NCBI RefSeq assembly: GCF_013374115.1
Contig: NZ_AP022673.1
Location: 834,501 to 898,500 of the forward strand
Direction: 5' to 3'
Source of the DNA: Sphingomonas sp. HMP9
Lineage (GTDB): Bacteria > Pseudomonadota > Alphaproteobacteria > Sphingomonadales > Sphingomonadaceae
Length of the DNA stretch: 64,000 bases
Shown here piece after piece: positions 23,311 through 55,006 of this stretch. Within the stretch, counting starts at the first letter, position 1, and each line of letters starts with the position of its first letter. The notes beneath the pieces are model-generated. The model saw nothing but the letters and a program-made list of their open reading frames with translations, did no database searches and was not told the DNA's origin. Both the position numbers and the translations under genes were made by a program.

Positions 23311-25419
23311 CTATTTCGTCAGGCCAAGTTGTTGCAGCATGAACGCCTGCCATTCGGCATTCTGGCGATAGCGTTCGAAGCGGCCCGACTTTCCGCCATG
23401 CCCAGCCTCCATGTTGACCCGGAACAGCAGCGGGTTCGTGTCGGTCTTCAGTTCGCGCAGCTTCGCCACCCATTTGGTCGGCTCGTAATATTGCACCTGG
23501 CTGTCCCACAGCCCGGTGCCGACATAGAGCGCCGGATACGCCTTCGCAGCGACGTTGTCGTAGGGCGAATAGCTCAGTATGTAATCGTACGACGCCTTCT
23601 GCGCGGGGTTGCCCCATTCGTCGTACTCGAACGTCGTCAGCGGGATCGACGCGTCGAGCATCGTCGTAACGACATCGACGAACGGCACCTGTGCGATGAT
23701 CAGCTTGTAGTCCGCCGGCGCCATGTTCGCGACGCCGCCCATCAGCAGTCCGCCCGCGCTGCCGCCCATCGCGGCCACACGGTTCTTGGCGGCATATTTC
23801 TGCGCGACGAGATAGCGGGTGACATCGATGAAGTCGGTGAAGCTGTTCTTCTTGTTGAGCAGATGCCCGTCGTCATACCAGCCGCGCCCCATCTCCTGCC
23901 CGCCGCGGATGTGCGCGATCGCGTAGACGACGCTGCGATCGAGCAGGCCGATCCGGCCCGGATCGACCGCCGGATCGCTCGAAATGCCGTAGCTGCCATA
24001 GGCGTATTGGAAGAGCGGCGCGGTGCCGTCGCGCTTCACACCCTTGGCATAGACCAGCGAGACCGGGATCCGCGTACCGTCGCGAGCGGGTGCCCAGACG
24101 CGTTCGGTTACGTACTTCGCGGGATCATAGCCCGGCACCGGTGCGACCTTCAGCACGCGCCGCTCGCCGGTCTGCGCGTTGACCTCGTAGGTCGTCGTCG
24201 GGGTCACGAGCGAGCCATAGGTGTACCGAACCCACGGCGTCGCGGTTTCCTCGTTGACGTCGAGCGACATGCGATAGGCGGGTTCGTCGGCGGTGACGGG
24301 GGTCGACTTGCCCGCGTCGCTCAGCACGCGGATCATGCGATTGCCACCCTCGCGCTGGTCGATTGCGACGAACCCATCGAACGGCTTGAAGCTCTCGATG
24401 AAGACCCTGTCGCTGGCAACGGTCAGGTCATGCCAAGCAGGCCTTCCTTTGCCAAGATCGGCGTCGGCGACGGTGACGAGCTTGTAGTTCTCGGCATCCT
24501 TGTTGGTGCGGATAATCCAGCGTTTGCCGAGATGATCCGACCTGTAGCGGAACTCTCGCGCCCGCGGCGCGACGATCGTGAAATTCGTTGGCGTAGCGGC
24601 GGGAGCGCAACGCTGCTCGTCGCTGACCGTGCTGCTCACGCCGATGCACACGAACCTGTCGTCCGACGTACGCGAGACGTCGATCGAGAAGCTGTCGTCT
24701 TTCTCCTCATATAGCAGCCGGTCGCTCGCGACCGGGGTGCCGAGGACATGCGCCTTCACGCGGTAGCCGCGCAGCGTCACCGGGTCCTTCTCGACGTACA
24801 GGATCGTCTTGTTGTCGTCCGCCCAGACGACGTTGGGCTCGATGTTCGAGAGGGTGTCGGCGAGGAGCGCGCCGGTCGCGAGATCCTTCACCTTCAGCAC
24901 ATATTGGCGGCGCCCCACCGTATCCTCGGCCCAGGCGACGCGGCGGTTGTCGGGGCTCACCGCCCAATCGCTCAGCGCGAAGAAGCTGTGGCCCTTGGCC
25001 ATTGCCGGCTGGTCGAACAGCATTTCGGGCGGCGCGGTGCGGCTGCCCTTGCGGCGCTCTAGGATCGGATAATCCGCGCCCGTCTGGAACCGGGAGCCGT
25101 AATAATAGCCGTTCTTGGCATAGGGGACCGAGCTGTCGTCCTGCTTGATATGCGCGACGGTGTCTTCGTAGAGCTTGGCCTCGAGCGGTTTCAGCGACGC
25201 GAGCTGCGCATCGGCATAGGCGTTCTCCGCGGCGAGATAGGCGAGCATCTGCGGGTTCTTGCGCGTGTCGTCGCGCAGCCAGTAATAATCGTCCTCGCGC
25301 GCGCCGTTGGGCGACGTCACCTGGAACGGCTTCTTCGCAACGCGCGGTGGCTGGACCTGCGCCACCGCGGCCGTCGCGAGCAGCGCCACACCGGCCAGCA
25401 TCATGTAGCGCATCGTCAT
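23311..25419 (-). CDS. S9 family prolyl oligopeptidase / oligopeptidase B-like, exported
   Basis: Serine peptidase of the prolyl oligopeptidase family, closest in layout to oligopeptidase B (PtrB), which cleaves after basic residues in small peptides. The 702 residues comprise a signal peptide (MLAGVALLATAAVAQ), a beta-propeller (about 30-430) that begins with the REDDYYWLRDD signature, and a C-terminal alpha/beta-hydrolase with nucleophile Ser554 in GGSAGG and the catalytic His in NMEAGHGGKSGR. The ATG at 25419 (MTMRYMM) or 25413 could start it; both give the same signal peptide. Location would be periplasmic. It stands alone downstream of the split P450 gene. Confidence 0.9.
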   Translation of the reverse strand: MTMRYMMLAGVALLATAAVAQVQPPRVAKKPFQVTSPNGAREDDYYWLRDDTRKNPQMLAYLAAENAYADAQLASLKPLEAKLYEDTVAHIKQDDSSVPYAKNGYYYGSRFQTGADYPILERRKGSRTAPPEMLFDQPAMAKGHSFFALSDWAVSPDNRRVAWAEDTVGRRQYVLKVKDLATGALLADTLSNIEPNVVWADDNKTILYVEKDPVTLRGYRVKAHVLGTPVASDRLLYEEKDDSFSIDVSRTSDDRFVCIGVSSTVSDEQRCAPAATPTNFTIVAPRAREFRYRSDHLGKRWIIRTNKDAENYKLVTVADADLGKGRPAWHDLTVASDRVFIESFKPFDGFVAIDQREGGNRMIRVLSDAGKSTPVTADEPAYRMSLDVNEETATPWVRYTYGSLVTPTTTYEVNAQTGERRVLKVAPVPGYDPAKYVTERVWAPARDGTRIPVSLVYAKGVKRDGTAPLFQYAYGSYGISSDPAVDPGRIGLLDRSVVYAIAHIRGGQEMGRGWYDDGHLLNKKNSFTDFIDVTRYLVAQKYAAKNRVAAMGGSAGGLLMGGVANMAPADYKLIIAQVPFVDVVTTMLDASIPLTTFEYDEWGNPAQKASYDYILSYSPYDNVAAKAYPALYVGTGLWDSQVQYYEPTKWVAKLRELKTDTNPLLFRVNMEAGHGGKSGRFERYRQNAEWQAFMLQQLGLTK

Positions 25420-25462
25420 ATCTTGCCCCGCCCAGTTGGTCGGCTGCGAAGATGACGAATTG

Positions 25463-26195: not shown

Positions 26196-27592
26196 GAGCT
26201 ATGTTGGAAAATGGGTGACGGTGGAGGATTGAAGGCGGCGTATCGAGGCGGGTGATGAGCCTGCCGGAACCTCTCAAGGAGAGCGATACGCCATGACCGA
26301 TACTACCAACGTCGTTCAATTTCGCCAGCCCGATGATGTCGACGATCCGTTGACCGAGGTGCTGCGTGCCGGAGCTCGCCGGCTGCTTGCGCAGGCGGTG
26401 GAACTGGAGGCCGAGGCGTTCCTGGCGGCGCGAGACGACCTGCGACTACCCGATGGACGGTCGCGCCTGGTGCGCCACGGGCACGGGCCAGAGCGTCAGG
26501 TCCAGACCGGGATTGGCCCGGTGCCGGTGTCGCGCGTGAAGATCCGTGATCGCGGGGGGGCCGAGGAAGGGGAGCGTGTGCGCTTCTCGTCGGCAATCCT
26601 GCCGCGCTGGGCACGGCGGACCAAGAGCCTGGATGCGCTGCTGCCGGTGCTGTATCTGCGCGGGGTTTCGACCGGCGATTTTCAGGAGGCGCTCACGGCG
26701 CTCCTTGGCAAGGACGCGCCCAACCTTTCGCCGGCGGTGGTCGGTCGGCTCACCGCTGAATGGCAGGTCGAATACGAGCACTGGCAGGCGCGCGACCTAT
26801 CGGCCCGCCGCTACGTGTATGTGTGGGCGGACGGCGTCTACCTGCAGGCGCGGATGGAGGATCATTCCGAGTGCATGCTGGTGCTGATCGGCGCCACGCC
26901 TGAGGGCAGGAAGGAACTGGTCGGCTTCCAGGTGGGCGTCCGTGAAAGCGCTCAGAGCTGGCGCGAGCTGCTCGTCGAGGTGAAACGGCGCGGCCTCGCA
27001 ATCGCACCCGAGATCGCGGTGGGCGATGGCGCACTCGGCTTCTGGAAAGCGCTCGACGAAGTCTGGCCCAGCACGCGCCACCAGCGCTGCTGGGTGCACA
27101 AGATCGCCAACGTACTGAACAAGGTGCCCAAGTCGGTGCAGCCTGCAATAAAAGCTGACCTGCGCGAGATATATAGCGCGCCTGAGCGCGCAGCGGCGGA
27201 GAAGGCGATCGCCGTCTTTGTCGAGAAATATAGCGCGAAATACACCAAGGCCGTCGAATGCCTGACCAAGGATCGCGAGAGGCTGCTCACCTTCTTCGAC
27301 TTCCCCGCCGAGCACTGGGACCATCTGCGGACGTCGAACCCGATCGAGAGCGTGTTCGCGACCGTGCGCCACAGGACGGTGCGTACCAAGGGCGCGCTGT
27401 CACCAAAGACGGCACGCCTCATGGTCTTCAAACTCGTCATCGCCGCGTCCAGGAAATGGCGCCGGCTGAAGGGCGAGAACCAGTTGCCCAAAGTCGTCGC
27501 TGGTGTCACATTCCGTGACGGCACCGAAGTCGTCGACGGCCAATCAACCCGCGCCGCCTGATCGCCTCGTCACCCAAATTCCGGCATAGCTC
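26196..27592 (+). mobile_element. IS256-family insertion sequence, complete
   Basis: A 1397-bp element with 25-bp terminal inverted repeats that differ at four positions. Both ends start GAGCTATG and have TGGGTGACG internally (left 26196-26220, right 27568-27592). It is flanked by a 9-bp duplication and holds a single intact transposase gene. It sits inside a cytochrome P450 gene. Intact ends and an uninterrupted transposase suggest a recent and possibly still mobile copy. Confidence 0.95.
26293..27561 (+). CDS. IS256-family transposase
   Basis: A 422-residue mutator-type DDE transposase. The catalytic triad is visible as Asp180 (VWADGVYLQAR), Asp245 (VGDGALGFWKAL) and Glu352 (NPIESVFATVRHRT), with the family C(2)H-like segment HQRCWVHKIANVLNKVPK between the second Asp and the Glu. 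The N-terminal DNA-binding part is complete. The ATG at 26293 follows TCAAGGAG with a spacing of about 10 bases. It lies 97 bp inside the left end and 31 bp from the right end, and it is transcribed against the P450 gene it interrupts. Confidence 0.96.
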   Translation: MTDTTNVVQFRQPDDVDDPLTEVLRAGARRLLAQAVELEAEAFLAARDDLRLPDGRSRLVRHGHGPERQVQTGIGPVPVSRVKIRDRGGAEEGERVRFSSAILPRWARRTKSLDALLPVLYLRGVSTGDFQEALTALLGKDAPNLSPAVVGRLTAEWQVEYEHWQARDLSARRYVYVWADGVYLQARMEDHSECMLVLIGATPEGRKELVGFQVGVRESAQSWRELLVEVKRRGLAIAPEIAVGDGALGFWKALDEVWPSTRHQRCWVHKIANVLNKVPKSVQPAIKADLREIYSAPERAAAEKAIAVFVEKYSAKYTKAVECLTKDRERLLTFFDFPAEHWDHLRTSNPIESVFATVRHRTVRTKGALSPKTARLMVFKLVIAASRKWRRLKGENQLPKVVAGVTFRDGTEVVDGQSTRAA

Positions 27593-47126: not shown

Positions 47127-49607
47127 TCACCAGCTCAGGCCGGCGCGTGCGTAGACGTACCGGCCGTTGAACCCGAACGGCGAGTAATAGGGATAGCCGA
47201 TCACCCCGGTCGGGTTGTTCGCGATGCTCGTCGCGTCGGGATAGACGTCGAACAGGTTGCTGACGCCGAGCCCGATCTGCGCGCCCTTCTTCGCCTGGTA
47301 GCGGAGTTCGAGATCGGTGATCAGGTGCTTGCCGCTATGGACGTCGCCAGCCGCCGTCGTGCCGGGCTGAGTCACGTCGCCATAATAGGTGACGCGGGCC
47401 AGTGCACCGAGCTGCTCGAGCGACCAGTCTATGGAGCCGGTCACCTTCTCGCCCGGCGTACCATTCTCCAGCGACTCGACGCGGTTGCGGGCGAACAACG
47501 TCGGTGCCGGGCTGAGGGTCGAGGTCGAGGTCGGCACGCGCGTGACGTTCACGTCGTTGACGTTGCCGGCGATCGTGAGGTCGAACGTCCCGGCAGCATC
47601 GGTCGGGAGGCGGTAATGCGCGACCGCGTCGATGCCCTTGGTGGTCGACGCGATCCCGTTGATGAAGAAGCGTGCCGCACTGACGTTGAACGGCGTCAGC
47701 AGCGCCGCGACCTGCGGATTGCCCGCCGCGGCAAGATTCTCCGACAGGCCGATCTGGTTGCGGATGCGGATACGGTAGGCGTCGACGGTCAACTCGAACC
47801 CGCCGGCGCGGATCACGGTGCCCACCGAGAGGTTGGTCGACTTTTCAGGCTCGAGCGGCAGGCCACCGAGCGCGACAGCGACGCGGTTTACCGAGGGATA
47901 CGTGCCCGTCAGGATCGGAATGCCATCCTGCACGACGCTGGCGACCGACGTGAAATACTGCTGTTGCAGCGCCGGCGCGCGGAAGCCGGTCGAAGCGGTG
48001 CCACGCAGCGCGAACCAGCGCGCGAAGTCGTAGCGTGCGGAGACCTTGCCCGTGCCGGTCGAGCCGAAATCGGAATAATCCTCCCCGCGCCCGGCAAGGC
48101 CGAGCAGCAACTTGTCCGTCACCTGCGCTTCGACATCGAGGTAGACGCTGCCGTTCCGGCGGCTCCGCTCGATCGCATTGTCCGGCGAGAACCCGCCAAA
48201 GCCCTGCGCCCCCGGCGGCGCGGTCAGCAGCGCGCCGCCGGTAACCGTGCCAGCGGTCGGATAGCCGTAGGAGGCCTGTTCACCCGGCTCGATCTTGAAC
48301 CCTTCGCGGCGTCCTTCCAGTCCGAAGGCGACGTTCACGCCTTGCAGAAGGTCGAATTTGCGATCGATGTCGAGCCCGAGGATGTACTGGTCGTAGATGA
48401 GTGCACCGTCGGAAAAATCCCTCGGCGTCGCGCTGCCATAGGCGTAGTTGGCGGAGTCCAGCGTGCGGAAACCGATCTTGTTGCGACCATAGCTGGCGTT
48501 CAGATCGACGGTCCAGTCGGCGACCTCGCCCTTGATACCGACCGCCGAGTTGATGTCGCGCGACTTGGTGTTGATCAGCGGGAGGAACCCGTCCTTCGTG
48601 CCGGCGAGCGTCAACCGCGTCGCCGAGGTCGCATCCAGCGGCAGGCGCGGGAACGCGGCACTGCGCGTGTCGCGGTCCTGATACCCTAGCCAGCCGTACA
48701 GCTTCCACGTACCCGTCAACGTCGTACCGGCATTGGCGAAGATGCTGTACTGTTCGACCTTGGGATCGCCGAACTGGCCCGTCACGCGCTTCGGCGTCGC
48801 GGGCGCGTTGAGCAGCGGGCGCGTATCGAAGTCGGCGCGGTTGGTCGCCTGCCGATCCAGATACTCACCCGAAACGGTCAGGAAGCCGTCCTCGCCAAAG
48901 CCGATGCCCTGCCAGCCGGATACGGTCAGCGCATGCTCGCCATTCGTGCTGCGGCTGCCGCGGGCAGTGTCTATATCGGTATTGTAGAAGCCGTAATTGA
49001 CCGTCATGCCGCCGCCCGAGCGTGCCTCGCGCAGCCGCAGGTTGACCACGCCGGCGATCGCATCCGAGCCATATTGTGCGGACGCGCCGTCTCGCAGCAC
49101 TTCGATGCGGTCGAGCGCAACCGTCGGGATCGTGTTCAGATCGACCGCAGCCGAGCCACGCCCGACCGACCCGCCGACGTTGAGCAGCGCCGCGGTATGG
49201 CCGCGTACGCCGTTGACCAGCACGAGCGTCTGGTCGGGCGAAAGGCCGCGCAACGTCGCCGGGCGGATCGCGTCGGTGCCGTCGACCGCGGATGGCCGCG
49301 GGAAGTCGATCGACGGCGCGATCGCCGACAGCGCCGCACCCAGTTCGGTCGTCCCCTGACGCTGGATCGCAGCCGAGCTCAGCACGTCGACCGGCGACGC
49401 GCTGTCGAGCCGCGACCGACCAACGGCGCGCGTACCCGTGACAATGATGTCGTCCTGCGTATCGGGTGCCGCAGCGGGGTCTGCGGCAGGCTCGGCAGCG
49501 GCTGGGGTCGCCGATTGAGCGGGCGCGCCCTGCGCATGGACGGCCTGCACGCTGGCGAAGGCGAGAGTCGAGGCAGCGAGCGTCAACGCGGTACGATAAG
49601 CGGTCAT
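47127..49607 (-). CDS. TonB-dependent receptor at the end of the desaturase operon
   Basis: An 826-residue outer-membrane receptor with a signal peptide (TLAASTLAFASVQAVHAQ), a TonB-box-like DDIIVTGT, a plug (ATLRGLSPDQTLVLVNGVRG, ALDRIEVLRDGASAQYGSDA) and a C-terminal barrel ending YVYARAGLSW. It belongs to the group of large Caulobacter/sphingomonad receptors whose substrates are mostly unknown. The ATG at 49607 has AGGGA at 7 bases. It lies 65 bp after the true reading end of the amidotransferase gene on the same strand, so it is likely co-transcribed with it or has its own promoter there. Substrate not determinable. Confidence 0.9.
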   Translation of the reverse strand: MTAYRTALTLAASTLAFASVQAVHAQGAPAQSATPAAAEPAADPAAAPDTQDDIIVTGTRAVGRSRLDSASPVDVLSSAAIQRQGTTELGAALSAIAPSIDFPRPSAVDGTDAIRPATLRGLSPDQTLVLVNGVRGHTAALLNVGGSVGRGSAAVDLNTIPTVALDRIEVLRDGASAQYGSDAIAGVVNLRLREARSGGGMTVNYGFYNTDIDTARGSRSTNGEHALTVSGWQGIGFGEDGFLTVSGEYLDRQATNRADFDTRPLLNAPATPKRVTGQFGDPKVEQYSIFANAGTTLTGTWKLYGWLGYQDRDTRSAAFPRLPLDATSATRLTLAGTKDGFLPLINTKSRDINSAVGIKGEVADWTVDLNASYGRNKIGFRTLDSANYAYGSATPRDFSDGALIYDQYILGLDIDRKFDLLQGVNVAFGLEGRREGFKIEPGEQASYGYPTAGTVTGGALLTAPPGAQGFGGFSPDNAIERSRRNGSVYLDVEAQVTDKLLLGLAGRGEDYSDFGSTGTGKVSARYDFARWFALRGTASTGFRAPALQQQYFTSVASVVQDGIPILTGTYPSVNRVAVALGGLPLEPEKSTNLSVGTVIRAGGFELTVDAYRIRIRNQIGLSENLAAAGNPQVAALLTPFNVSAARFFINGIASTTKGIDAVAHYRLPTDAAGTFDLTIAGNVNDVNVTRVPTSTSTLSPAPTLFARNRVESLENGTPGEKVTGSIDWSLEQLGALARVTYYGDVTQPGTTAAGDVHSGKHLITDLELRYQAKKGAQIGLGVSNLFDVYPDATSIANNPTGVIGYPYYSPFGFNGRYVYARAGLSW

Positions 49608-49672: not shown

Positions 49673-50443
49673 TCATCGGTCCCGATAGGTCCCAAGCGAC
49701 TGGCCGATAAGTGAAAAGATTGCGCGGCTGGATGCGCTGGCTGCAACGTCCCATTCGGGATGTCACTGCACCGCCAGCACATCGCCGCCGCACGGACGCG
49801 CCGAGAACGCCTCGACCAGCCCATCCGACACCGCGTGCGCCTCGACGCTGAGCCCCTCCCCCAGCCGGTCGATCCCCTGGCGGTGAACCGACGTGACCAA
49901 GATGGTCGACTCGGCGATCGCAGCCGCGAGCATCCCTCCCGACAGCAGGCTCACATCGTGGACATGGTCGAACAGCGTTTCGTACGCGGTCGTGTCCTCG
50001 GTCGATCGGTGATGGCCGTCGTCCAGCGCATCGGTCAGCGTGCCGCCGAACAGCACGTTCAGCTCCTGCAACCCGCGACAGATGCCGAACACCGGCCGCC
50101 CCGCCTCGATCATCCGCCCCGCGAGTTCGAGCGCCACCGCATCGCGTTCGAGATCAAGTGCATCGTCGACCGCGTCGGACTTGCCATAACGGGCGCCTGC
50201 GACGTTCGACCGCGATCCGGTGAGCAACAGCCCGTCGAGTCGCGCCGCCAGCGCCCGCGTGTCCATCGCATCCGCCACCGCCGGTACCAGCAACACGGTC
50301 GCGCCCGCATACCGGACCAGCGGCTCGACGAAGCGCGTGGCGACCGCCTGGATCGGACGATCGACGACCTCGTTGCAGCACAGCACGCCAATCACCGGCT
50401 TCGGCGGTCCATCCTCTCGCCGACAACAGGCAAAGCGCATCAT
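49673..50443 (-). pseudogene. Class I glutamine amidotransferase (peptidase C26, PuuD-like) with an in-frame TGA
   Basis: Resembles gamma-glutamyl-gamma-aminobutyrate hydrolase, which splits gamma-glutamyl amides with a Cys-His-Glu triad. The nucleophile Cys122 is in VFGICRGLQELNV. Codon 227 is TGA (49763-49765), where the family has Trp in VQWHPEW. Immediately after it the same frame reads HPEWDVAAS and on through RAIFSLIGQ to a second stop at 49673, so the catalytic His and Glu lie past the TGA. The product ending at 49763 would be 226 residues and inactive. One base change (TGG to TGA) or a sequencing error explains it. The start overlaps the serine acetyltransferase stop by ATGA. Confidence 0.85.
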
Positions 50444-51384
50444 GCGGCGCGTCCCCGCAGCGTCTCGTGCAGTTGACCGGCGGCCTCCCCCGCCAGGATC
50501 ACCGCCGTCGGCTGCGCGACGACGCTACCCGCGGGCACGTCCTCCAGCAGCCAGACATTGCCGCCGATCGTCGCGCCGCGCCCGATCGTGATCCGACCGA
50601 GGATCGTCGCGCCGGCGTAGATGACGACGTCGTCCTCGACGATCGGATGCCGGGCAAGCCGCTCGCGCGCCGATACGTCGGTCACCCCGAGCGGGCTGCG
50701 CGCTCCGAGCGTGACATGCTGGTAGATTTGGACGCGGTCGCCGACGATCGCGGTTTCGCCGATCACGACGCCGGTGCCGTGATCGATGAAGAAGCTGCGA
50801 CCGATCGTCGCGCCCGGATGGATGTCGATCCCGGTGCGATTGTTCGCGAGTTCGGAGATGATCCGCGCGACGATCGGTGCGCCCAGCCCGTACAAGGCGT
50901 GCGCGATCCGGTGGTACAGGATCGCGACGACGCCGGGATAGCAGATCAGGATCTCGTCGGCACTGCGCGCAGCCGGATCGCCGAGAAACGCAGCGCGCAC
51001 GTCATCGTCGACCAAAGCGCGGATCGGCCCGAGTTCGGCGATGAACAGCCCGGTGATCATCGCCGCATGGCTGACGTCGAACGCCAGCACCGCCTCTTCC
51101 TGCCAATAGCTAAACTCGCATTCGACCTGCCGTTGCAGCCGCGCCAGAGCCTGCCGAAGCCGGGTTTCGACGAACGCATCCTCGCGCTCGACCGGTCCGG
51201 TGAACATGCCCAGCCGACCAGGAAACAGCGCGGCGACAAGATCGTCGACCGCCTGCCCGGTCTCGGCCAGCGACGGGAACCGGTCGAGCCGATGGCGACC
51301 ATCCGCCGCCCGCCACGCAGACCGCGCGGTGCGCAGTTCCTCGATCGTCGCCGAAAGGTCGAGCGCTTCTGTGGCATGCGCCAT
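50440..51384 (-). CDS. Serine O-acetyltransferase (CysE/EpsC type)
   Basis: Makes O-acetylserine from serine and acetyl-CoA, the precursor for cysteine. The 314-residue protein has the N-terminal helical domain (VETRLRQALARLQ) and the hexapeptide-repeat left-handed beta helix: IHPGATIGRSFFIDHGTGVVIGETAIVGD, in its parts, with the catalytic His in the segment DIHPGATIG and the second in DHGTGVVIGE. The ATG at 51384 has AAGGA at 7 bases. It follows the PhnD-like gene by 19 bp and overlaps the amidotransferase gene. A cysteine-synthesis role would be expected of a housekeeping copy; here the neighbours suggest that O-acetylserine may feed a special pathway. Confidence 0.9.
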   Translation of the reverse strand: MAHATEALDLSATIEELRTARSAWRAADGRHRLDRFPSLAETGQAVDDLVAALFPGRLGMFTGPVEREDAFVETRLRQALARLQRQVECEFSYWQEEAVLAFDVSHAAMITGLFIAELGPIRALVDDDVRAAFLGDPAARSADEILICYPGVVAILYHRIAHALYGLGAPIVARIISELANNRTGIDIHPGATIGRSFFIDHGTGVVIGETAIVGDRVQIYQHVTLGARSPLGVTDVSARERLARHPIVEDDVVIYAGATILGRITIGRGATIGGNVWLLEDVPAGSVVAQPTAVILAGEAAGQLHETLRGRAA

Positions 51385-51403
51385 GAGATCATCCTTCGAC
51401 ACG

Positions 51404-52198
51404 TCAGCGGAGTTCGGGATAGCCGGCACGAACCGCGTCCGCGTCCAGTCGTGATATCGGCAACAGCGACGTCGGATCCGCAGGCACGATACCGGTGAGG
51501 AACAGCGCGTCACGCACTGCGGCGAGGTCGGGATCGGCCATGACACGGTCGAGCGCGATCCGCAGCGCTGCCACGGTCACGGCGTCGGTCGATGCCGCGG
51601 TCACGAACGGCAGGCTCGGGGACGGCGAAGTGCGCGCGACGATCTTCACCCCGGCGGTGAGTTCGGGCTCGAACCGGTCGACCGCCGCGAAGGTGACGCA
51701 GTCGATCACCGCGAGGTCCACCGCACCGCTACCCACCGCAGCGAGGCTGGAGCGATGGGCTCCGCTGTCCACGACCTTGGCAAAGAACGCCCCCTGCCCC
51801 GCATACGGCGCGACCGCCGCGCGGAACAGGTTCATGCCGGTGTTGGATCGGCGATCGTTGATGCCAGCGCGACTGCCCCGGAAGTCCTCGACCGCGTCTC
51901 GCGCATCGTCCGCACGCGCGACCAGGACGCTGCCCGGCATTGCATCATAGACCGGGAACGCGACGATCTGGAGCGCCAGCGTCGGATCGACGACCAGCGG
52001 ATATCCGCACGCCTGCCCGAACACCAAGGTCGGATCGCGCCAGATCGCATGGACGTCTCGCGTCCGGTCGAGCCTGTTTGGTACGTCCGCCACGCCTTGA
52101 TCGCGCAAGGCCGCGGCGAGCGCCGACCAGAGGCGGTCGTTCGCACTATGTTGCGCAGGGTGATCGTGCATGCCCAGCGAGGCGATCCGGCCGGTCAA
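51404..52198 (-). CDS. PhnD-like periplasmic-binding-fold protein without a signal peptide
   Basis: A 264-residue protein of the phosphate/phosphonate ABC-transporter substrate-binding family (PhnD-like; PF12974 type). It opens MTGRIASLGMHDHPAQHSA, a pattern seen in family members, and has SRAGINDRRSNTGMNLFR and VGSGAVDLAVIDCVTF. It has no signal peptide or lipobox, so it should stay in the cytoplasm, and no ABC permease or ATPase gene is near. The TTG at 52198 overlaps the desaturase stop in TTGA; an ATG at 52171 is possible but loses conserved residues. It may have become a ligand sensor or enzyme; function unknown. Confidence 0.8.
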   Translation of the reverse strand: MTGRIASLGMHDHPAQHSANDRLWSALAAALRDQGVADVPNRLDRTRDVHAIWRDPTLVFGQACGYPLVVDPTLALQIVAFPVYDAMPGSVLVARADDARDAVEDFRGSRAGINDRRSNTGMNLFRAAVAPYAGQGAFFAKVVDSGAHRSSLAAVGSGAVDLAVIDCVTFAAVDRFEPELTAGVKIVARTSPSPSLPFVTAASTDAVTVAALRIALDRVMADPDLAAVRDALFLTGIVPADPTSLLPISRLDADAVRAGYPELR

Positions 52199-53088
52199 AC
52201 GGTACCGCCCCGGTGCAGCGGATGCACCATGTCGTCGTGCGCGCTGAATGCAAACCGACGGACGACCTTACCATAGCCGCGATAGATCGGTGCACCGGCA
52301 TCCACGAACCGCTGCCGGTTCAGCGCGTGATAGGTAGGCAGGTCGTACCAGGCGAGCGACGGCCGCTCATGATGCGCTGCATGAAGATTGTTGTTTAGGA
52401 ACACCAGCCCGAGAAGGCCGCCATGCTCGACACTCGCCGCACGACCTGGGCTGTCGAGGTCAGCGCGGTGCTCGACATAGGAGCGCACCATCGTCAACGC
52501 GATGCCAGGATATACGAAGCACAGCGCATAGCGCACCAGGCCGAGCCCGACATGGTCGAGCCGGAGGACTACTAGTATGACGGCGATCGCATGGGGCAGC
52601 CAGTGGCGCGCCACCGTCACCGGCGCGCGCACCATCCGCCGAGTCTCTTGAAGCAAGGACCGCACGACGCAGATCGGCGGGCCGAAGATGATCTGACCCA
52701 GCAGTGTCGACTGAAGCTGCGCCAGCGCCTGCTGGAGGCCGCGCGAAACCGTGCGATAGCGGGACTCAGGGTCGTATCGCGGATCGGTGATGATCGTCGC
52801 GCAGTGATGCGCGATGTGGCTCCGGCGATAGAGGCGATAGGGCAGCCAGAGCGACAAGGGGACGAACCCGATCGCATCGTTGATCCAGCGATGGCCGGTC
52901 GGATGCCCGTGGATCGTCTCGTGTTGCAACGATCCCTGCCAGGCGAGCAGCCCCCCGCCGAGCAGGATCAACACGGGTGTCGGCAACAGCGCGTGCCACG
53001 CTGTCACGGCCAGCCACCCGCCGTAGATGACAGCTGCCAGGATGACGGTAGGCCATCCGACCCGCGATCTCGAAGACTCCCGCTGCAT
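52195..53088 (-). CDS. Fatty-acid-desaturase-family membrane di-iron protein
   Basis: A 297-residue membrane protein with the three histidine boxes of the desaturase/hydroxylase superfamily: HETIHGH, HIAHH and NLHAAHHERP. These bind two iron atoms and oxidise a C-H bond using O2. Hydrophobic segments flank the boxes. The superfamily includes acyl desaturases, carotenoid ketolases and hydroxylases of other substrates, so acyl chain is not assured. The ATG at 53088 has GGAGGTGAGG directly before it, a strong ribosome-binding site. It is the first gene of the operon and overlaps the PhnD-like gene by TTGA. Confidence 0.87.
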   Translation of the reverse strand: MQRESSRSRVGWPTVILAAVIYGGWLAVTAWHALLPTPVLILLGGGLLAWQGSLQHETIHGHPTGHRWINDAIGFVPLSLWLPYRLYRRSHIAHHCATIITDPRYDPESRYRTVSRGLQQALAQLQSTLLGQIIFGPPICVVRSLLQETRRMVRAPVTVARHWLPHAIAVILVVLRLDHVGLGLVRYALCFVYPGIALTMVRSYVEHRADLDSPGRAASVEHGGLLGLVFLNNNLHAAHHERPSLAWYDLPTYHALNRQRFVDAGAPIYRGYGKVVRRFAFSAHDDMVHPLHRGGTV

Positions 53089-53256: not shown

Positions 53257-54936
53257 TCAGGCGATACGGTCCAGCGGGCTATCCGGCTGGCCCGCCGTCG
53301 CCCGGAACCGCGCTGCGACCGCCTGCGTGTAGGGCTTGGTCATCACGGTCGACACCGTGACCGAGTCCGCCGTCGCGTGCTCCGGGGTCAGCGTCAGCAA
53401 CGTGAACCCTTTCCCGACCTGGTCGCAGAACCGGACCTCGCCCTTGTTCGCATCCGCGATCAGCGCACCGATCCCCGGCAGCAACGAGCCATAGGACAGG
53501 CTCGTGATCGCAGTGCAGCCGAACTCGACCGCGACCTGCTTGCCCGAGGCATCGTGCAGGTCGTTCGCCCACGCTGCATGGCTGTCACCCGACAGCACGA
53601 TCGGGCGCGACTTGGCACGCTGGAACGCGGCATACAGGCGCTCGCGGGCCGCCGGATAACCGTCCCAGCTATCGAGCCCGAACGGCATCCCCGCACGGTA
53701 CGATGCGATGCTTGCCACCAGTCGTTCCCGCCACATTGCCGGCAGCTTCGCCATCGCTTCGGCGAATTTGACGGGTCCGAGTTGCCGCTCCATGTCGGGC
53801 CCCGCAACCTTCGCCATCACCACCTGGTTGCCGAGCACCTGCCACGGCTTCCCCGCCGCGACCGAATTCGCCATCGTCTTCTCGACCCACGCCAGTTGCG
53901 TCGCCCCGAGAAGTTCGCGGTCGGCGCGCGCGCGTTCCGCCAGCATCGGCGCATATTCAGCGGGCGTGATCTCCTCGCCCTTCGACACGACCTGATGACT
54001 ACGCGCCAGCAGCCGCGTCTCGACCATCACGAGCGTCGCAAGGTCGCCGAAATCGAAGCTCCGGTTGATCGCCGCCCAGGGCTGGCCGGGCTTGGGATCG
54101 CGGATCGGCATCCATTCGAAATACGCCTGCATCGCGGCCGCCTTACGCGCGTCCCAATCGCCTTCGGTCTTGGGGTCGTGGTTCTCGGCACCGTGCATCC
54201 AGTCGTCGTTGGCGACCTCATGATCGTCCCAGACGCAGATGAACGCGGCGCGAGCGTGCGCGGCCTGCATGTCGACGTCGCGCTTCACCTGCGCGTGCCG
54301 CATCCGGTAGTCGGCAAGGCTGACGATCTCGTGGCGCGGCTCGACGAAGCGGCCGATCTTCTTGGCGATGTCCGCGCCGTACCCGTCGACGCCGTATTCG
54401 TAGATATAGTCGCCCAGATGGAGCACGGTATCGACCCGGTCGAGCTTGGCGATCGCATCATACGCGTTGAACAGACCGCCCGCGTAGAGCTGGCAGGAGA
54501 CGACCGCCATGACGACGTCGGCGACCTTGCCCTTCGGCAGCGTCCGGAACCGACCGACGGGCGAGCGCGTGCCGTCCGCGGCATCGAACCAATAGCGATA
54601 TTCGCGACCCGGCTGGAGCCCGGTCGCCTCCACCTTGGCCGTGAAGTCGCGCGACGCGCGGGCCTTGACGGTGCCCGAGCGGATCGGCTTGCCGTCCTCC
54701 GTCTCCGCGACATGCCAAGTGAGCGCGATATCCCCAGCCTGCGCTGTTTCGACCGGGGTGGCGCGGGTCCACAAGATGGCACCATCGACCGAGGGATCGC
54801 CGCTCGCTACGCCGTGATCGAAACGGGATTTCGCAGCGCCCGCTGCTTGTGACGCGACCGTGGGGAGCGCGAGCGTCGCGCCCGAGCCGGCGAGTTTAAG
54901 GGCGTTTTTCAAGGCATCGCGGCGGTTGATCGTCAT
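53257..54936 (-). CDS. phoD: Alkaline phosphatase PhoD (Tat-exported)
   Basis: Secreted calcium/iron-dependent phosphomono- and diesterase. The 559-residue protein opens with a twin-arginine signal (TINRRDALKNALKLAG, then a hydrophobic stretch to about residue 33). It has the PhoD N-terminal Ig-like domain, the metal-site segments VSCQLYAGG, VLHLGDYIYEYG and FICVWDDHEVANDDW, and VLSGDSHAAWANDL near the C-terminus. The start at 54936 is the one that gives the Tat signal. It is divergent from a TonB receptor and PhoX-family phosphatase, with Pho-box candidates in between, so it is probably induced by phosphate limitation. Confidence 0.94.
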   Translation of the reverse strand: MTINRRDALKNALKLAGSGATLALPTVASQAAGAAKSRFDHGVASGDPSVDGAILWTRATPVETAQAGDIALTWHVAETEDGKPIRSGTVKARASRDFTAKVEATGLQPGREYRYWFDAADGTRSPVGRFRTLPKGKVADVVMAVVSCQLYAGGLFNAYDAIAKLDRVDTVLHLGDYIYEYGVDGYGADIAKKIGRFVEPRHEIVSLADYRMRHAQVKRDVDMQAAHARAAFICVWDDHEVANDDWMHGAENHDPKTEGDWDARKAAAMQAYFEWMPIRDPKPGQPWAAINRSFDFGDLATLVMVETRLLARSHQVVSKGEEITPAEYAPMLAERARADRELLGATQLAWVEKTMANSVAAGKPWQVLGNQVVMAKVAGPDMERQLGPVKFAEAMAKLPAMWRERLVASIASYRAGMPFGLDSWDGYPAARERLYAAFQRAKSRPIVLSGDSHAAWANDLHDASGKQVAVEFGCTAITSLSYGSLLPGIGALIADANKGEVRFCDQVGKGFTLLTLTPEHATADSVTVSTVMTKPYTQAVAARFRATAGQPDSPLDRIA

Positions 54937-55006
54937 CGTCTCGGGCTTTCGTAACGGGTGTCGCCCGCCTGCTAGCCACGATCGAAGACAAGCCGGCGGC
55001 AACGAT

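Follow-up and report, generated by a model that had tools for sequence, protein, structure and literature searches.

A stop codon at the catalytic-motif tryptophan of a Peptidase_C26 gene in Sphingomonas sp. HMP9: a probable recent gene loss

The chemistry of class-I amidotransferases is established, and loss of activity follows when their catalytic residues are removed. The Peptidase_C26 family (PF07722) comprises the gamma-glutamyl hydrolase-like enzymes of this class, and solved relatives include 7d4r, a probable glutamine amidotransferase, and 6vtv, the gamma-glutamyl-GABA hydrolase PuuD. For bacterial genes interrupted by an in-frame stop, Belinky et al. (2021) used dN/dS and double substitutions to argue that many such stops leave the gene functional (PMC7918605). 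Leakage at UGA varies widely among bacteria; one reporter study gives 12% for E. coli, 0.08% for P. putida, and 0.04% for P. aeruginosa (PMC9481147). Furthermore, an anticodon stem of four pairs in tRNA-Trp has been tied to UGA readthrough (PMC13092985).

The locus described here lies in a 64,000-nucleotide stretch of the Sphingomonas sp. HMP9 genome, referred to as the window. A Peptidase_C26 gene occupies positions 49673-50443 on the minus strand, and its codon 227 (49763-49765) is TGA. The open reading frame of the truncated, class-I glutamine-amidotransferase-like product (49763-50443, minus strand) encodes 226 amino acids and ends with Gln226. Beyond the stop, 29 further sense codons (49676-49762, HPEWDVAASASSRAIFSLIGQSLGTYRDR) follow in frame before a terminal TGA (49673-49675); the closest sister proteins, 256 aa long, end at that very residue too. 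The read-through protein is 94-96% identical to these proteins over 256 residues, C-terminus included, and the continuation after the stop is therefore not due to chance. An earlier note, made from the letters of the sequence, had placed a TGA exactly at the Trp of the VQWHPEW motif, with an unbroken frame to a second stop 29 codons later and the catalytic His and Glu outside the predicted protein. Translation confirmed the coordinates, the strand, and the frame, and homology placed His228 and Glu230 after the stop.

The PF07722 profile scored 159.4 bits with the truncated product (E = 1.4e-46) and 176.1 bits with the stop read through (E = 1.1e-51), both above the cut-off of 20.5. In an alignment of 18 sequences Cys122, Trp227, His228, Pro229, Glu230, and Trp231 were invariant; the window's own entry was read through, so that its Trp227 is present by construction. 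Cys122, His228, and Glu230 correspond to the established catalytic triad of the C26 family. By homology, the triad is incomplete in the predicted product, with Cys122 before the stop and both His228 and Glu230 after it. A model of the read-through protein, calculated with an 18-sequence alignment as input, reached a mean pLDDT of 79.9 and a pTM of 0.82. It shows a strand at residues 222-225, the HPE loop immediately thereafter, and a helix of 20 residues at 237-256. According to this model, truncation would remove the final helix along with two of the three catalytic residues. Taken together, homology and the model indicate a product that should be inactive and is probably unstable. Alignment with the solved relatives 7d4r, 7d50, and 7d53 extends through the motif; in 7d50 and 7d53 an Asn replaces the His, and these two would appear to be deliberate active-site mutants. 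No strong second C26 match was found in the window's genome. The other five profile matches were weak (20-44 bits), and thus no backup copy is evident.

The gene is embedded in a series of genes on the minus strand. Upstream lies an EpsC/CysE-type serine O-acetyltransferase gene (50440-51387, start chosen in this analysis; the longest open reading frame starts at 51546), the TGA of which overlaps the ATG of the C26 gene as ATGA at 50440-50443, which suggests translational coupling of the two. It is preceded by genes for a PhnD-like periplasmic binding protein (PF12974; 51404-52174, longest frame to 52198), a fatty-acid-desaturase-like or hydroxylase-like protein (PF00487; 52195-53088, longest frame to 53220), and a PhoD-like phosphatase (53257-54939, longest frame to 55002). 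A TonB-dependent receptor gene (47127-49607, start chosen in this analysis; longest frame from 49793) follows downstream. All five frames are open in the window, in agreement with the earlier description of the rest of the operon as intact, and the relatives G024 and G186 match these five genes over all but a few residues. Among the best 80 of 347 related loci, a similar acetyltransferase gene was found near the C26 gene in 73, directly upstream and on the same strand in 69. The other neighbors were far less frequent (receptor 25, PhnD-like 16, desaturase-like 16, PhoD 7, within 4-kb flanks, some of which end early). The conserved unit is therefore the acetyltransferase together with the C26 gene. 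A search of the open-licence literature returned no paper on a joint function of this pair.

The PhnD-like and desaturase-like genes (51404-53088) differ from their surroundings, being 64-76% identical to the sister proteins, as compared to 88-95% for the neighbors. In the 80-kb stretch compared, the genome G018 has no match to either gene. This cassette may have undergone exchange or fast evolution.

The state of codon 227 was followed in three sets of relatives. Among 250 congeneric genomes, 116 (the window's own included) yielded a total of 121 matches, and every match spans the Trp position. Only the window's own match carries a stop there; the other 120 do not. An in-frame stop at any position was seen in seven of the 121 matches. 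Besides the window's own, these are six with an intact Trp, whose stops represent the normal terminus or, in G164, a TGA ahead of the start codon. Thirty loci from this search were fetched, and the 29 from relatives all have TGG. Likewise, TGG was present in all 80 loci kept from a GTDB scan (the best 80 of 347 relatives), a set that is biased towards TGG because it was selected partly by the word VQWHPEWD and that shares many genomes with the congeneric set, so that the two are not independent. The congeneric genome search and a protein search did not depend on this word alone. In the latter, 692 proteins passed, and a W precedes HPE in 118 of the best 120. The two exceptions are P0023, a single entry with a 210-residue product ending at the stop, which is the sole form of the window's gene in that search, and P0064. 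The latter belongs to the same family, is a metagenome entry with one member, and has substitutions at both the Trp of the motif and the catalytic Glu. The expectation that most orthologues would have TGG was thus borne out, and none of the relatives examined ends at the same point, the outcome that would have spoken against a lesion. These sequences show the stop to be private to the window's genome among the genomes examined, and recent.

The seven sister species, among them Sphingomonas faeni MA-olki and Sphingomonas sp. Leaf230, are 89.5-91.7% identical to the window over the gene at the DNA level, and nine further relatives 76-82%. All seven sisters have TGG, and the stop is therefore younger than the split from them. 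Leaving out the stop itself, the private changes on the branch leading to the window comprise eight replacements and 19 silent codons, a ratio that departs from neutrality (P = 3e-5). Purifying selection acted on most of this branch. Neutral drift over its whole length is excluded, and therefore the gene had a use during most of this period. The seven sisters together show 14 replacements and 80 silent changes. Compared to them, the excess of replacements in the window is weak and marginal (Fisher P = 0.094; one-sided binomial P = 0.038), and the relaxed fraction of the branch was estimated at 0.12 (range 0-0.37). Codons 226 and 242 carry changes in the window that are absent from all seven sisters. 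The latter change, F242I, lies after the stop at a position occupied by F in 117 and by Y in one of 118 homologues (from the best 120 of 692). The excess of replacements, F242I included, is compatible with recent relaxation or inactivation, without proving it, and could also be lineage noise. Neither a frameshift nor a deletion nor any other second lesion was found in the window's C26 gene.

We read the locus, with a probability of about 0.7, as a young nonsense null, specific to this strain or species, in a recurring pair of serine-acetyltransferase and C26 genes. As the sequence reads, a private truncating stop removes essential residues, which is what characterizes a nonsense pseudogene. 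In the course of events that we propose, a recent nonsense substitution would have converted the Trp codon of VQWHPEW to TGA in one Sphingomonas lineage or strain. Ribosomes would terminate at Gln226 via RF2, and the product would keep the nucleophile Cys122 but would lack His228 and Glu230 of the triad as well as the C-terminal helix of 20 residues. Little effect is to be expected on the acetyltransferase or on the downstream receptor, because the C26 gene lies 3' of the acetyltransferase gene, which it overlaps by ATGA. The result would be a young pseudogene from which at most traces of full-length enzyme leak via near-cognate tRNA-Trp. The earlier note had listed a fresh null mutation, a base error, and readthrough, and this list proved to be the right one; given a private, recent stop and an ordinary decoding machinery, the null ranks first, ahead of the base error, with readthrough far behind both.

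In line with this reading, the same window contains another recent gene loss. A Mutator/IS256-type insertion element (26196-27592) with a transposase gene at 26293-27561 (PF00872), 25-bp inverted ends (26196-26220 and 27568-27592), and an apparent target duplication of about nine bases interrupts a cytochrome P450 gene; in the relative G186 this gene is unbroken. Separately, at 25419-25446 of the window, G186 has about 2.1 kb with an ORF of 692 amino acids that has no match in the window.

The alternative, an intact gene in which one base was miscalled in sequencing or assembly to give the TGA, is less likely than a real mutation, and we consider it unlikely, if worth weighing seriously. Such an error would produce what is seen here, a conserved gene with one private stop and no second lesion, and in neither of the sister genomes G186 and G018 was a comparable lesion confirmed in the same stretch. 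However, the assembly comprises 4.0 Mb in two contigs and is 100% complete and 0.16% contaminated, and the 43-base context of the stop contains neither a homopolymer of four or more nor a GATC, GANTC, or CCWGG motif. The private changes at codons 226 and 242 also suggest real divergence. Furthermore, 400-kb stretches were compared by their ORFs, of which 78 of 92 were kept in one direction and 85 of 94 in the reverse comparison, with about 120 kb aligned. Among the 78 kept ORFs of this comparison with G186, the C26 stop was the only one in the window's genome with strong identity on both sides; three stops were flagged there in total, the two others having low identity downstream. One further flagged stop in G186 and one in G018 likewise showed low identity downstream.

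The two best-looking candidates in the sister genomes were rejected as nonsense lesions. A stop with strong flanks in G018 and a Trp-to-TGA case in G186 both fall in frames without a Pfam match, the former antisense to other genes, which look like a nucleoside-diphosphate kinase and an acetyltransferase from their sequence, and the latter antisense to longer genes that look cobalamin-type by the same kind of reading.

A systematically broken assembly is not supported by the comparison of G186 ORFs with the window. Of 46 reference ORFs matched there, 13 were flagged for a stop. Seven ORFs were flagged as short, from which the P450 case was followed up. Seven of the 13 stop-flagged frames were examined, the remaining six being short (82-167 aa). 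One of the seven is the C26 gene, two look non-coding, and four are of high identity with stops in a poorly supported N-terminal part, where they probably precede the true starts.

A third reading holds that the TGA is decoded as Trp often enough to give a working enzyme, from an allele of low or regulated expression; we regard this as improbable. When a Trp codon has become TGA, decoding by the near-cognate tRNA-Trp puts the original residue back. The gene also retains the selection-like pattern of 8:19, and Belinky et al. argue that many bacterial in-frame stops do not mark pseudogenes (PMC7918605). Against this, the allele was present in none of the relatives examined, F242I lies after the stop, and UGA readthrough in the reporter study was 0.08% and 0.04% in the two Pseudomonas species versus 12% in E. 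coli (PMC9481147). The decoding machinery examined also looks ordinary. By pattern search, one tRNA-Trp was found in the window's genome; it has the anticodon CCA, is identical in eight of eight genomes, and has an anticodon stem of five Watson-Crick pairs (read by eye), not the four-pair form. RF2 is present and has no private residue in the window's genome over the 350 residues compared in seven of the eight genomes; G161, with a prfB divided between two frames, was not part of this comparison.

Specific routes to decoding the TGA were considered and rejected. A genome-wide recoding of UGA to Trp disagrees with the use of TGA as the terminal stop in nine of 13 window genes checked, with the CCA tRNA-Trp and its 5-bp stem, and with the presence of RF2; in the comparison of 400-kb stretches TGA was terminal in 60 of 85 kept ORFs, a count that includes frames that are not genes. 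For a suppressor tRNA, 21 UCA-like pattern matches (10 + 11) contained no tRNA, in a search by two patterns that could miss tRNAs differing in a loop or in the variable arm, and the sole tRNA-Trp found was the ordinary CCA form. An altered RF2 was dismissed on the comparison given above, and selenocysteine insertion because no selB match exceeded the cut-off (best profile match in the genome 184.2 bits, cut-off 242.25). Maintained or programmed readthrough gains nothing from conservation, the stop being absent from all relatives examined and F242I following it.

Two observations on individual genomes were made in these comparisons. G024 (L040) carries a second, different tRNA-Trp(CCA) gene that the same pattern did not find in the other seven genomes. 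In G161 (L169), an assembly of 80% completeness, the PhnD-like and desaturase-like genes match in part only; this and the split prfB are probably frameshift errors in that assembly.

A narrower variant of the readthrough reading is that a leaky UGA at the Trp adjoining the catalytic His acts as a dimmer. Through misreading by tRNA-Trp, small amounts of an enzyme identical to the ancestral one would be made, varying with growth state, and the allele would have been selected in this lineage; we hold this to be very doubtful. A selected truncation, with the 226-residue protein serving a new non-catalytic role as a binding or regulatory domain, is scarcely credible: the frame before the stop is intact, bears the marks of past constraint, and keeps Cys122, but no relative in the sets examined ends there, and the loss of the C-terminal helix of the fold predicts instability in the model.

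If the nonsense null is real, it adds one more young bacterial pseudogene, mainly of use as a natural knockout, in which the C26 partner is broken in a serine-acetyltransferase/C26 pair that recurs across Sphingomonas. It also calls for caution with annotation, as the protein search lists this gene solely as the 210-residue P0023.

In comparison with the described systems, the gene shares with the Peptidase_C26 family its profile, the Cys122 region and, when read through, the VQWHPEW motif; it differs in that its product terminates ahead of the catalytic His and Glu. With PuuD it is homologous over most of its length, and the earlier term PuuD-like holds in this loose sense. Strictly taken, it falls outside PuuD, because even with the stop read through it scored 127.9 bits against the PuuD equivalog NF008471 (cut-off 266), and its usual neighbor is a serine acetyltransferase. 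The genes with a single in-frame stop treated by Belinky et al. (2021) likewise combine one nonsense codon with an otherwise constrained gene (PMC7918605). Unlike those cases, the stop in the window was seen in one genome only, and therefore no evolutionary persistence argues for function. The event looks like one of a known kind, an ordinary recent gene loss or a single-base error, and not like a new decoding mechanism.
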